23,512 nt of DNA from a virus. Positions 1-5,497 of this stretch are shown here, one piece after another. Location of the stretch: the IMG/VR virus record IMGVR_UViG_3300030329_003382, positions 1 to 23,512 of that record. One strand, 5' to 3'. Position 1 is the stretch's first letter; each line of letters starts with the position of its first letter. Both the position numbers and the translations under genes were made by a program. The notes under the pieces are model-generated. The model made no database searches and was not told where the DNA came from. It saw only the letters and a program-made list of their open reading frames with translations.

Positions 1-824
1 GCCAAATCATGCTCGACCACCGCTATATCTTCTTGTGTGTACGCGCTGAACCCTGGCAAATCTGCGGGTGTGCTGCGCGGCTCAGGCACCAAGCGCGGTG
101 GCGGTGGCTTGGCAAAGCCGTAGTATTCTTTGAACTTCGCGCGGCTTAGAACAGTGCCAAGACCGTGTTGCTTCTCACGTAGAAAGACCGCTCGGCGGTG
201 GCTTGAGCTGACCCACCAGTTGACCACCGCAAAAAGCTTATCCTCTCCATCTTCTGCCAATCGCGCTTTGATCAACCGTCGCGCTCGCTGGTCAAACTCC
301 AGCTTCTGGTGCTCATCGAAAATGTGATCAGCCTTTTTCTTAATCTCTAAAAACACACACTCTGCCTTCTGCCGGTAAGCCTCAGCGCTCTTTGTGTGTT
401 TAAGAATATGTGTTTTGTTTTTTGTGTTTTGTTTTAACGCGCGTGGGGAGGTTTCTTGGAGGTTTTCTGGAGGCTTTGCCGAGGCGCGTTCTTGTGTTTT
501 CAATGGTTTAGGTGCTGCATTCCGGTTGGTCATCGGTTGGTCATCGGTTGGTTTCCGGTTGGTTTTTCTCATTTTCTTAGGCTTTCCCCATATCTCTTCG
601 GCCTTCATTGCCTGGCGTGCTTTCCAATCGGACCAACCCCAGCGAGCACACAACGCCGGGCGGCTCGGGCGTCTGTGTCTGCCCTGCTCTTCTTGGTCAG
701 CGTACCACCTGAGATCCATATAGACCGCCTCGGGCGGCCACGGGCGTGGCAATGTGTCGGCAATCGTTGGCCACCAATGGAGATCCATGGCCAGCCAAGG
801 GGTGCGTGCTTGTCTGTCTTTCAT
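1..824 (-). CDS. Phage replication initiator-like protein (partial, runs off the left edge)
   Basis: The frame is open from the ATG at 822-824 to the window edge, giving 274 codons with no stop; the C-terminus is missing. The ATG follows GAGGTG at 833-838. The N-terminal part (residues about 35-75) reads like the winged-helix domain of phage replisome organisers, with RPSRPALCARWGWSDWKARQ as the likely recognition region. Residues about 85-130 are a low-complexity, Pro/Asn/Thr/Lys-rich linker. The distal part contains FAVVNWWVSSSHRR followed by LSRAKFKEYYGF, resembling the C-terminal domain of DnaD/O-type initiators, which ends in a K-F-x-x-Y motif. By family it would bind the phage origin and recruit or load helicase. 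It is the last gene of the recombination/methylation block, 111 bases after the cytosine MTase. The linker-coding DNA holds two arrays of 11-bp-period repeats and an AT-rich tract, as in lambda O. The family call is by eye and the exact family is not fixed. Confidence 0.75.
   Translation of the reverse strand, partial: MKDRQARTPWLAMDLHWWPTIADTLPRPWPPEAVYMDLRWYADQEEQGRHRRPSRPALCARWGWSDWKARQAMKAEEIWGKPKKMRKTNRKPTDDQPMTNRNAAPKPLKTQERASAKPPENLQETSPRALKQNTKNKTHILKHTKSAEAYRQKAECVFLEIKKKADHIFDEHQKLEFDQRARRLIKARLAEDGEDKLFAVVNWWVSSSHRRAVFLREKQHGLGTVLSRAKFKEYYGFAKPPPPRLVPEPRSTPADLPGFSAYTQEDIAVVEHDL
391..438. other. AT-rich tract, candidate DNA unwinding element
   Basis: Only 11 of 48 bases are G or C, and the plus strand is strongly T-biased. 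The 12-mer GTGTTTTGTTTT occurs twice, at 410-421 and 424-435 (period 14). Repeated AT-rich 12-13-mers beside iterons are typical of duplex-unwinding elements. Confidence 0.5.
447..479. repeat. Iteron array B: three GGAGG(T/C)TTt repeats
   Basis: Copies start at 447, 458 and 469, again with an exact 11-bp period: GGAGGTTTCTT, GGAGGTTTTCT, GGAGGCTTTGC. The sequence differs from array A but the spacing rule is the same, and the codon phase again rotates. It lies between array A and the AT-rich tract. Confidence 0.6.
523..563. repeat. Iteron array A: four perfect CGGTTGGT octamers
   Basis: CGGTTGGT occurs at 523-530, 534-541, 545-552 and 556-563, each separated by three bases, giving an exact 11-bp period (about one helical turn). 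Because 11 is not a multiple of 3, the octamers are read in all three codon phases (phases 0, 2, 1, 0 relative to the gene), so protein-level selection cannot explain their identity. This favours a protein-binding array on DNA, most simply for the initiator encoded by the same gene. Confidence 0.8.
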
Positions 825-2406: not shown

Positions 2407-2770
2407 CGCTCACCTTCTTAGATCTTCGCAGATAGAAAAACCCAGCCAAGCGCGGCTCTTCTTGCATCAGCAATCGAGAATAGAAAGGCGTCAGATTGTT
2501 GTTGAGCTTGAAGCTGTCGCCGGTCGTCTCAAACTTCTGTTGATAGCGCAGCACCTCAAAGAGCCCTTTGATAGAGTGCTTCTTGTGCCCTCGGTTTACA
2601 AGGTCAAGCGCGAGCTGGCGCAAGCGGTAATAGACGTGCAGGTTGGCGTTGTGGAAGGCCAGGTCTTCAGCGCTGGCCCACCAGAGCCGGCGGCGCTGCT
2701 CACGTTGGTAAGACGTGAGGCGCTGCCCAGTTGGATCGATGTCTACATATATGGTGGGGTCGTTGTGCAT
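2399..2770 (-). CDS. Conserved-type phage protein of unknown function (123 aa)
   Basis: Rich in aromatic and basic residues (RRLWWASAEDLAFHNANLHV; GLFEVLRYQ; LNNNLTPFYSRLLMQEEP), with a composition like small DNA- or replisome-associated proteins in phage early regions. I do not recognise a named domain or catalytic motif. The likely start is ATG at 2768-2770, coupled by TGATG to the stop of the putative annealing protein; a GTG one codon upstream is possible. It lies between the annealing protein and the methyltransferases, pointing to an early DNA-metabolism role, which is inference from context. Confidence 0.7.
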   Translation of the reverse strand: MHNDPTIYVDIDPTGQRLTSYQREQRRRLWWASAEDLAFHNANLHVYYRLRQLALDLVNRGHKKHSIKGLFEVLRYQQKFETTGDSFKLNNNLTPFYSRLLMQEEPRLAGFFYLRRSKKVSGG

Positions 2771-3540
2771 CACCGCAACGGCTCCCGGCGCATCGGCTCC
2801 CGACCAATTCGGTTTTCGCAGACTATGTTTTCGTACATCTCACCAGCAGTAGACCTCAACTGATCTAAAAGCTCCGCTCTTTCTTTTCGATTCATTTGTG
2901 ACGGGCGTTTGTCCGTTCCTGGCATGTTGTGTTTTACAAACAACACGACGTAATCCATCAGCCCCGAATTGGTTTTTAATTCGTCCCTTGAAATATCGGT
3001 GAGTGTCTCCATGCCGTTGTTCAAACAAATCTCCCGCGCGATTTGCATAAATTCTTTGGCATCTTCTTTCCACGTTGGATCCCACGGAAGTTCAGCGGTT
3101 TTTTGGTCTACTGGACCAGCGGGCAAATCTGGATCTGCCGAATCACCCACGCCCGGGATTTCTTCGGCGCTTGTATCAGCGACACCTGGCCCACGTAGAA
3201 CACGCCTAAGCGTGCGATTGATTGCGCGGGTTTCTGCCATTCGCAGTGTAGCGCTTTTGATATTTGTCCCCACGTTGTTTGGGGACGCATCACCCAAGCC
3301 GGTATGCGTTGCCCCGGTGGCGTCTACAATCTCAGCCTGCACAACCCAGAAGCCCTTTTCGGGATTGCACGCCCATTGCACAAGCGTGGTCTTTTGAGAC
3401 TGCACGCCCTGCTTTTTTGCCAGATGCTGCAAGCCCTTCTGGTTTATATACGGCTTATTAGAAACAAGCGTGATCCCGCCTATTTGCTGAAGCTCAGCCA
3501 TAAAAAGCTTTGTTCTTTCTTTGATTGTTTGATCATCCAT
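2770..3540 (-). CDS. Putative ssDNA annealing/recombination protein
   Basis: This 256-aa protein starts at ATG 3538-3540 after GGAGTCAAAA; the longer open frame to 3699 would overrun the ribbon-helix-helix gene. The N-terminal half has ITLVSNKPYINQKGLQHLAK, then VQAEIVDATG, THTGLGDASPNNVGTN and SATLRMAETRAINRTLRRVL. This layout (a compact alpha/beta domain followed by a basic R-x-A-E-T-R-A-x-x-R-x-L-R helix) recalls Rad52/Erf-like single-strand annealing proteins, which coat ssDNA and pair complementary strands. The C-terminal half is acidic and then helical, with a basic end (NRIGREPMRREPLR). Neighbouring ssb and rusA fit a recombination module. The family assignment is inference by eye; a different ssDNA-binding role is possible. 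Confidence 0.6.
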   Translation of the reverse strand: MDDQTIKERTKLFMAELQQIGGITLVSNKPYINQKGLQHLAKKQGVQSQKTTLVQWACNPEKGFWVVQAEIVDATGATHTGLGDASPNNVGTNIKSATLRMAETRAINRTLRRVLRGPGVADTSAEEIPGVGDSADPDLPAGPVDQKTAELPWDPTWKEDAKEFMQIAREICLNNGMETLTDISRDELKTNSGLMDYVVLFVKHNMPGTDKRPSQMNRKERAELLDQLRSTAGEMYENIVCENRIGREPMRREPLR

Positions 3541-3745
3541 TTTTGACTCCGTTGTTGATGATTTGTTGTTTGATTCTGTCTTCGATGATGGGCAGCCCAG
3601 CGCGGACAGCCTGCACAATAATGGTGGAGCGGCTTGGCTGTGCCACGTCGGTGGCGTTGGTTTTGCTCGCCAACTCTGCCAGCCGCTTGGCTTTGCCAAG
3701 CAAATCTCCAGGGATTCTAAGCGAGGTTAAGTGCTTTTTATTCAT
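3533..3745 (-). CDS. Ribbon-helix-helix DNA-binding protein (70 aa)
   Basis: Starts at MNKKHLTSLRIPGDLLGKAK (ATG at 3743-3745). The pattern is that of MetJ/Arc-type regulators: a short beta strand (TSLRIP), helix A (about residues 12-27), a turn, then helix B containing SRSTIIVQAVRAGL. Such proteins dimerise through the ribbon and bind short repeated operators, usually as repressors. It overlaps the upstream gene by 8 bases and the annealing gene by 8. It is the only obvious transcription factor in the window. The promoter region of its own operon has two TCACAGA direct repeats (4127-4145) that could be its operator; this is inference. Confidence 0.75.
   Translation of the reverse strand: MNKKHLTSLRIPGDLLGKAKRLAELASKTNATDVAQPSRSTIIVQAVRAGLPIIEDRIKQQIINNGVKNG
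3543..3550 (-). promoter_or_regulatory. Shared leader motif GGAGTCAA (annealing-protein gene)
   Basis: Shine-Dalgarno octamer GGAGTCAA followed by AAA and the ATG. The same octamer leads the 29-aa peptide gene and ssb. It decides the start at 3540. Confidence 0.7.
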
Positions 3746-4190: not shown

Positions 4191-4604
4191 ATGGTTTGGA
4201 CTGTCAAAATCCCGCTTGAGCCTATGGGTAAGCAGCGCCCACGAATCACCAAGGTGGGCAATTTCTCGCGGGCATACACACCGCCCAAGACAAAGAAGTG
4301 GGAGAAAGACGCGGCCTTGGTTTTGCGGGCAAACTGGCGCCGCCCACCGCTTGAATGTGCTGTGTCTTTTGAGGTCGTCGCCTTTCGTGAGCGCACCAAA
4401 GAAATGCTCCGAAAGAAAAACCTGGCGATCAAGCATTGCACCACCAAGCCAGATGGAGACAACATCTTAAAAATCTGCCTGGATTCGGCGGTAATTGCAG
4501 GCGTTCTAAAAGACGACAACATCGCCGCTTATATTTCTTGCGGCAAGCAATGGGCAGATCCAGGCTTGAAGGGCTACCTTGAGATCCGAATAGCCCTGCT
4601 ATAG
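4191..4604 (+). CDS. rusA: RusA-family Holliday junction resolvase
   Basis: This 137-aa protein, the usual length for the family, has the N-terminal strand and basic motif PMGKQRPRIT (residues 11-20). The acidic active-site pattern follows: KPDGDNILKICLD (Asp88, Asp90, Asp98), then GVLKDDN (Asp108, Asp109). RusA dimers cut four-way DNA junctions symmetrically; in phages they resolve recombination and replication intermediates before packaging. It is the only plus-strand gene in the window, facing ssb and divergent from the recombination operon, and has its own terminator at 4670-4704. No good Shine-Dalgarno precedes the ATG at 4191, so translation may be weak or the start slightly different. 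The orientation suggests an independently acquired cassette. Confidence 0.92.
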   Translation: MVWTVKIPLEPMGKQRPRITKVGNFSRAYTPPKTKKWEKDAALVLRANWRRPPLECAVSFEVVAFRERTKEMLRKKNLAIKHCTTKPDGDNILKICLDSAVIAGVLKDDNIAAYISCGKQWADPGLKGYLEIRIALL

Positions 4605-4713: not shown

Positions 4714-5079
4714 TTAGAACGGAACTTCTGCGCTGTCGTTGTATGGCATTCGGTCGGGCGTTTCTGGCTGGTCAAACTTTACGCGCTTCCCCATGCCTTG
4801 AAAGTGGTCAGCGACCAGCTCAAGATCAAAGCCCTTCTCGCCGTTGCGCTTCTCGTATTCGCGCACCTCGAGCCGCCCCGTGGCGCTGATCGTGTCGCCT
4901 TTGTTGATGTATTGGGCGGCGTATTCAGCACGCTGGCCCCAGCACGTCACCGTGTACCAGGTTGTCTCGCCTCGATTGTTTGAGGCCACCCGGTGCTTGG
5001 TCACTTTCTTTCCGTTGGCTGTGACCTTCAGATCGCCTACCTGGCCGACGTTTCCCGTTAAATGCATAATAGCGGACAT
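4714..5079 (-). CDS. ssb: Single-stranded DNA-binding protein
   Basis: This 121-aa OB-fold protein starts at MSAIMHLTGNVGQVGDLKVT (ATG at 5077-5079, after GGGAGTCAAT); a longer frame from 5103 lacks a ribosome-binding site. Recognisable SSB features are TWYTVTCWGQRAEYAAQYINKGDTISATGRLEVREYE, with the W-x-x-V-x-x-W/F-G core and the G-x-x-V/I-x-V/A-x-G-R-L strand pair (quoted in separate pieces: TWYTVTCWGQRAEY and KGDTISATGRLEVREYE). The C-terminus ends AEVPF, keeping the terminal Pro-Phe used to recruit partners, though the acidic tail is short. It would coat ssDNA in replication and recombination. Its leader has the GGAGTCAA motif and a branched inverted repeat at 5124-5183. Its 3' end faces rusA. 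Confidence 0.93.
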   Translation of the reverse strand: MSAIMHLTGNVGQVGDLKVTANGKKVTKHRVASNNRGETTWYTVTCWGQRAEYAAQYINKGDTISATGRLEVREYEKRNGEKGFDLELVADHFQGMGKRVKFDQPETPDRMPYNDSAEVPF

Positions 5080-5080
5080 A

Positions 5081-5088
5081 TTGACTCC
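5081..5088 (-). promoter_or_regulatory. Shared leader motif GGAGTCAA (ssb)
   Basis: GGAGTCAA followed directly by T and ATG; identical octamer to those before the 29-aa and annealing genes. It decides the ssb start. Confidence 0.7.
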
Positions 5089-5123
5089 CTTTGTTTGTGC
5101 CATCTAAACATAACCCAGGCAAA

Positions 5124-5295: not shown

Positions 5296-5497
5296 CTTTG
5301 GGCTCTTCTGCTGGTGGCTCTGGTGCGGGCTCGGCGGGCTCTGGTGCGGGCTCAACCTCTGCGCCAGCTTCTTGGCCTTGCTCGCCAAGCTCAAGCTGAC
5401 AACTCCCCCACGCACCCGCCACAACCAGCGCACCTCCAAGGAATGCCACGCGGGTGTTTTGCCGGGCGGCGTCTATCTGTTCTTTGATCTTGCTCAT
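5273..5497 (-). CDS. Single-TM protein with Pro/Glu-rich tail (74 aa)
   Basis: N-terminal amphipathic stretch (MSKIKEQIDAARQN), one hydrophobic segment (VAFLGGALVVAGAWGSC, residues about 17-33), then an acidic proline-rich tail (VEPAPEPAEPAPEPPAEEP). The Cys after the hydrophobic segment is only a poor lipobox (W-G-S-C). It is coupled to the endolysin-like gene by an ATGA overlap and has a good GAGG ribosome-binding site. In the lysis context a Rz1-like outer-membrane spanin is conceivable, since those are Pro-rich lipoproteins, but the lipobox is not convincing; it may simply be a tail-exposed membrane protein. Confidence 0.6.
   Translation of the reverse strand: MSKIKEQIDAARQNTRVAFLGGALVVAGAWGSCQLELGEQGQEAGAEVEPAPEPAEPAPEPPAEEPKDAVQKEG

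Follow-up and report, generated by a model that had tools for sequence, protein, structure and literature searches.

A probable replication origin inside the putative initiator gene of a phage, marked by repeats spaced 11 bp apart which are also found in other phage initiators

The window, that is, the whole stretch of DNA which we have analyzed (23,512 nt), begins with a gene read from the minus strand and cut by the end of the record. The features found in this gene are shown in Table 1. In two close relatives (L033 and L039) the full-length gene codes for 311 amino acids. The protein encoded in the window has no match in Pfam, PHROGs or NCBIfam, nothing matched it in PDB, and a search against 50,697 phage records gave no match, even at E = 10. 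PHROGs 2514, 186, 345 and 391, which contain DnaD-like and O-like initiators, match neither this protein nor the one from L033, and we do not file it as a member of these families. No helicase or helicase loader gene was recognized in the window or in L033.

The architecture of the protein was predicted with AlphaFold2 from five sequences. The model has modest confidence and is better than the poor model obtained from a single sequence, with which Foldseek gave no usable match. It has two helical regions (residues 9–80 and 137–238), separated by a disordered one (residues 81–136). The N-terminal domain has block-mean pLDDT values of 72–91 over residues 11–80, and its helices 55–62 and 66–80 form a helix-turn-helix. 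The matches obtained in fold searches, with GntR-type domains and helical bundles, were only middling; VIA-align Z values for the N-terminal domain against GntR-type DNA-binding domains reach 5.4. The helix-turn-helix can also be aligned with a phage initiator profile (hhalign P = 0.0012, 25 columns). The C-terminal domain has a W..S..RA.fLR...TLL motif, conserved in the alignment with two distant homologues described below, and it is a candidate contact region for the helicase or its loader.

Table 1. Features of the putative initiator gene, with positions in the window.
Feature	Position	Strand	Basis and remarks
Putative replication initiator gene	3..824	-	ORF; 274 codons in the window, 3' end cut by the record end
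Helix-turn-helix, residues 53-80, ...PSRPALCARWGWSDWKARQAMKAEEIW	585..668	-	AlphaFold2, fold alignment, hhalign
Array 1: four putative iterons ACCAACCG	523..563	-	Starts 11 bp apart; encodes residues 88-101
Array 2: three to four weaker 11-bp units, GCCTCGGCAAA GCCTCCAGAAA ACCTCCAAGAA ACCTCC	447..485	-	Tandem Repeats Finder
AT-rich tract	388..442	-	Coding strand A-rich; second least stable 50-mer of the window starts at 388
Predicted helical C-terminal domain, residues 137-238	111..416	-	AlphaFold2; motif shared with L475 and L467

A preliminary description of this DNA had pointed out four exact copies of CGGTTGGT in the plus strand, starting at 523, 534, 545 and 556, which form a single tandem array with an 11-bp period. 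We find the array as it was described. Tandem Repeats Finder also calls it, at 523–563 and with period 11. The coding (minus) strand reads the unit as ACCAACCGNNN; in this strand each unit is ACCAACCG plus three bases, which gives ACCAACCGGAA, ACCAACCGATG (twice) and ACCAACCGG. The octamer has no further copy in the 23,512 bases, where 0.54 would be expected anywhere. Four identical octamers with one fixed spacing are expected about 3e-9 times per window of this kind (23,512 x 34 periods / 4^24). The copies do occupy all three codon phases, as had been claimed (coding-strand phases 0, 2, 1, 0). DNA has 10.5 bp per helix turn, so sites spaced by 11 bp drift by about 17 degrees each, and the four sites lie nearly on one face of the helix. 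GC skew gives no origin signal and is uninformative in this case.

A repeat inside a gene may reflect selection on the protein, in this case for a linker rich in T, N, Q and P. Many initiators of this type do have similar linkers (QPTTNQxPTNDQP). On the other hand, three-phase reading of a unit of 11 bp produces a peptide repeat of 11 residues, and for this reason the linkers of many initiators read alike. When the peptide TNRKPTDDQPMTNR is kept fixed and its codons are redrawn with the codon usage of the window, the octamers are lost: All four are kept with P = 3.3e-4, and the observed self-match at 11 bp is attained in only 1 of 2000 synonymous redraws. This P value understates the case, since the peptide itself is the product of such three-phase reading. 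Many other genes give the same result in such redraws. Selection for a protein repeat is therefore highly improbable, and the claim that the conservation is found at the level of DNA is borne out. Array 1 thus consists of direct DNA-level repeats within the coding sequence of a putative initiator. It is located, as previously suggested, in the linker between the helix-turn-helix and the C-terminal domain, which AlphaFold2 predicts as disordered.

Two other features of the gene add to the preliminary description. Array 2 has a CCTCC core, and only 2 of 2000 synonymous redraws reach its self-match; it is a candidate second iteron cluster of low affinity. The AT-rich tract, a candidate DNA unwinding element, contains a repeat with a 14-bp period, AAAACAAAACACAA. 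The counterpart in L033 of the 50-mer starting at 388 is also the second least stable one there. This tract is found about 80–135 bp from array 1, farther than is typical in other phages.

The gene in L033 and L039 is nearly identical, with 97% of the residues conserved and 17 nucleotide differences in 822, and array 1 is unchanged. These differences are too few, so L033 alone cannot show that the array is conserved. More distant relatives were sought with a DNA pattern for the helix-turn-helix, RWGW[ST]xxK[VA]R, which is found in 48 viral contigs. Two of them, L475 (= L492) and L467 (= L493), code for proteins which a profile search detects as homologues over residues 10–243, with 25% identity (E = 5e-17 and 8e-17, respectively, relative to the candidate stretches). 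Two others, L449 and L461, only have the N-terminal region with the helix-turn-helix in common with the window protein. The protein from L475 has a weak match with phrog_345, an O-like initiator (E = 0.021). The preliminary description called the gene an initiator gene; its architecture and its distant homologues agree with this name, but the protein falls outside any named family, and we call it a putative initiator.

Repeats were expected at the same place in relatives with an initiator of this kind. All four of these distant relatives carry repeats in the linker, behind the helix-turn-helix. A spacing of about 11 bp is kept in three of them, while the core differs in sequence and one array is irregular. 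In L449 and L461, TCAATCA is found at spacings of 11, 11, 53, 11 and 11 bp; L475 has runs of CCAAC at 11, 11, 12, 11 and at 11, 12, 11 bp; the linker of L467 contains the irregular array, made of GGACCC. There are two clusters of repeats in L449, L461 and L475, as in the window.

Two well-known phage origins have the same layout. The lambda origin lies inside gene O, and its iterons are bound by the O protein (PMC7466680). As in the window, four direct repeats occupy the middle of an initiator gene, in its interdomain region, and an AT-rich tract lies downstream (PMC7466680). The comparison with lambda made in the preliminary description is thus correct for the layout within the linker and for the octamer, which differs from the lambda repeats; the unit and its spacing differ as well. 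Lambda iterons have 18 bp and their starts are 20, 24 and 23 bp apart, a size and spacing which the window, with units of 11 bp built on a core of 8 bp, does not share. The two initiator families are also unrelated. In SPP1, oriL lies within gene 38, it contains direct repeats and an AT-rich unwinding element, and it is bound by the encoded gp38 (PMC6316719). The likeness to the window is one of layout, direct repeats in the initiator gene plus an AT-rich tract; a further origin, oriR, is present in SPP1.

The array might also be an operator, through which a DNA-binding regulator acts within its own gene, with replication starting elsewhere. The N-terminal fold does resemble those of GntR-type transcription regulators, and DNA binding by itself would not prove an origin function. 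Nevertheless, the array is deep within the gene, not at its start, and it has an AT-rich tract behind it. Genes with this architecture are named as replication initiators, and the position of the array is that of the origins of lambda and SPP1 (PMC7466680, PMC6316719). An operator is thus an unlikely explanation. Array 1 is very probably the part of a phage replication origin which binds the initiator, inside the gene for that same initiator. This origin is of a known type, that of lambda O and SPP1 gene 38, in a protein family which has no name. As the record covers just a fragment, there could be another origin beyond its ends.

The origin would work as follows. The N-terminal helix-turn-helix would bind the 11-bp units in a row, along one face of the helix, and the resulting nucleoprotein complex would destabilize the AT-rich tract which follows within the gene. 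The C-terminal domain, held by a flexible linker which is encoded by the origin DNA itself, would then bring in the replicative helicase or its loader.

Repeats with this period are not limited to the relatives of the window gene. Among 34 genes picked solely by their helix-turn-helix motif, 18 have a self-similarity at period 11 which surpasses every one of 200 synonymous shuffles. At other periods the same genes give 11 cases at 22, 6 at 34, 4 at 33 and at most 2 elsewhere. Isolate phages were gathered by similarity to a DnaD-like initiator, and then to its N-terminal domain alone. An 11-bp array, or a 22/33-bp multiple, is found right behind the DNA-binding domain in 22 of the 26 initiators examined, which include P22-type gp18, HK022 O and HK106. 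The exceptions are lambda O (20 and 23 bp), Mammaliicoccus phi31 and Vibrio 1.167; jenny 12G5 has a weak 33-bp match. Initiators with 11-bp arrays include SE1 gp18, HK022 O, HK106 and those of Listeria 293, phiAT3, Lc-Nu, Staphylococcus SA345 and JS01, Vibrio phages and Cellulophaga phi18:3. In P22/HK022-type O-like and in DnaD-like initiators, the arrays are independent of the peptide, they directly follow the winged helix and they have a related core, close to C[CA]AnC. Such arrays are the rule in these initiators, unlike in lambda.

The proteins themselves are different. P22/HK022-type and DnaD-like initiators have a full GWIKLHR...ITIVNYxxYQ domain, while the window protein has a MDLRW...RWGWS domain, and only the weak helix-turn-helix match joins the two. 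The window also differs from them in having a second array. Nevertheless, its array 1 looks like theirs: It goes beyond what synonymous shuffles give, it comes directly after the helix-turn-helix and its core is close to C[CA]AnC. When 23 arrays are aligned, they share a motif, approximately WTRaCMAnCRR, which reaches 3.93 bits, compared with 2.39 +/- 0.10 when the positions within the units are shuffled; the null ignores codon constraints and a few of the arrays are related, so one should not rely on the exact significance of this difference. The unit of the window, ATGACCAACCG, agrees with this motif.

Tandem repeats arise easily, and an array produced by slippage might be tolerated, with no function, in a linker which is predicted to be disordered. 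In fact, arrays with the same core are also found in genomes outside initiators. The frequency of repeats in different genes argues against this explanation. Initiators chosen by family, drawn from samples of 150 genomes, have tandem repeats in 26 of 46 cases (20 of 38 when the genomes reached through the repeat pattern are left out), compared with only 1 of 177 neighboring ORFs (Fisher P = 2e-20). Several periods are found among them; 11 is the commonest single one (5 cases, 3 without the pattern-reached genomes). The peak at 11 bp also appears in initiator genes which were chosen independently, it is absent at most other periods, and the core is common to phages whose hosts belong to different phyla. 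Slippage without function is thus very unlikely.

Searches for the core itself point to the same genes. Three copies of GGTTGGT at period 11 are found in 35 viral contigs, and most of the long ORFs which contain them code for replication initiators, of the DnaD-like, O-like or primosomal types. A shuffled core at period 11 gives 37 contigs, and the ORFs are again mostly replication initiators. Period 10 gives 15 contigs and period 12 at least 120; in these cases the ORFs containing the arrays are not replication initiators. Tandem repeats are common, so raw contig counts are not informative: What discriminates is the gene which holds the array.

In 30 genes, the 60 bp immediately behind the arrays show a drop in GC content of about 9.5 points, with A exceeding T. 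We tentatively suggest that winged helix-turn-helix phage initiators have one origin design in common, with 11-bp units, spaced by about one helix turn, which run through the three reading frames of the linker right behind the DNA-binding domain, a core close to C[CA]AnC and an A-rich tract behind. This design possibly extends over phages of Firmicutes, Proteobacteria and Bacteroidota, and over families with no detectable overall sequence match, among them that of the window protein. The widespread period of one turn, together with a shared core, may be a generalization which has not been described. The open papers which we searched describe the intragenic origins of lambda and SPP1, but none of them reports 11 bp as a general period; early work on P22 and lactococcal phages available only by subscription lies outside that scope, so this absence carries little weight. 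In a profile of nine DnaD-like N-termini, conservation was nowhere high enough for scanning. One match among 398 genomes, L434, was rejected as spurious.

These results place a testable, probable replication origin and a putative initiator in a phage in which no role in replication had been assigned to any of the early genes. An 11-bp signature which runs through all reading frames marks the initiator and the origin where protein similarity fails. If the design is indeed undescribed and holds true, the sequence alone would suffice to locate origins and initiators in thousands of phages. Two questions are raised: how one DNA-binding domain reads sites which are one turn apart, and how the core and the recognition helix change together. 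The same nucleotides are under both DNA and protein constraints, which makes these genes a good case for the study of overlapping information.

Some other repeats are worth mentioning. In many initiator genes, from isolates and from other viral sequences (such as L408, L415, L418, L448 and L452), the 11-bp arrays are directly followed by an AT-rich tract whose period is 9 bp or a trinucleotide (AATAATGATAATAATGA...), and such tracts encode runs of Asn, Asp and Lys; they could be unwinding elements with a period of their own. Many short dispersed arrays of GGTTGGT at 11 bp, similar to GTGCCAGGTTGGT, are present in a planctomycete MAG (L211, L232, L234, L235, L236, L300, L323, L327) and in bin Ja1_bin-1028 (L231, L242, L252, L253, L286, L295, L308), in both cases outside initiators. 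In two related viral fragments (L032 and L037), arrays of ACCAACCGGGT with 11-bp spacing are not spanned by any long ORF; they may be an intergenic form of this type of site. At 5316–5353 of the window, a 12-bp repeat gives a small membrane-like protein a Pro/Glu repeat of the PAPEP type; unlike the 11-bp array, this is a repeat at the protein level.

The neighborhood of the initiator gene also differs between relatives. A gene for a C5-type DNA methyltransferase (936–1661) and an unnamed gene (1658–2194) are absent from L033 and L039, which are otherwise collinear with the window: There, the initiator gene comes almost directly after the counterpart of the 2191–2406 ORF. The region 936–2209 is likely a swappable cargo pair adjoining the origin. 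Further along, a gene at 2770–3699 has a TGLGDASPNNVGTNIKSATLRMAETRAINR motif and matches only PHROG 22961, of unknown function; near it are a gene for SSB (4714–5103) and, in the opposite strand, one for a RusA resolvase (4191–4604). Its product is possibly a recombination protein.
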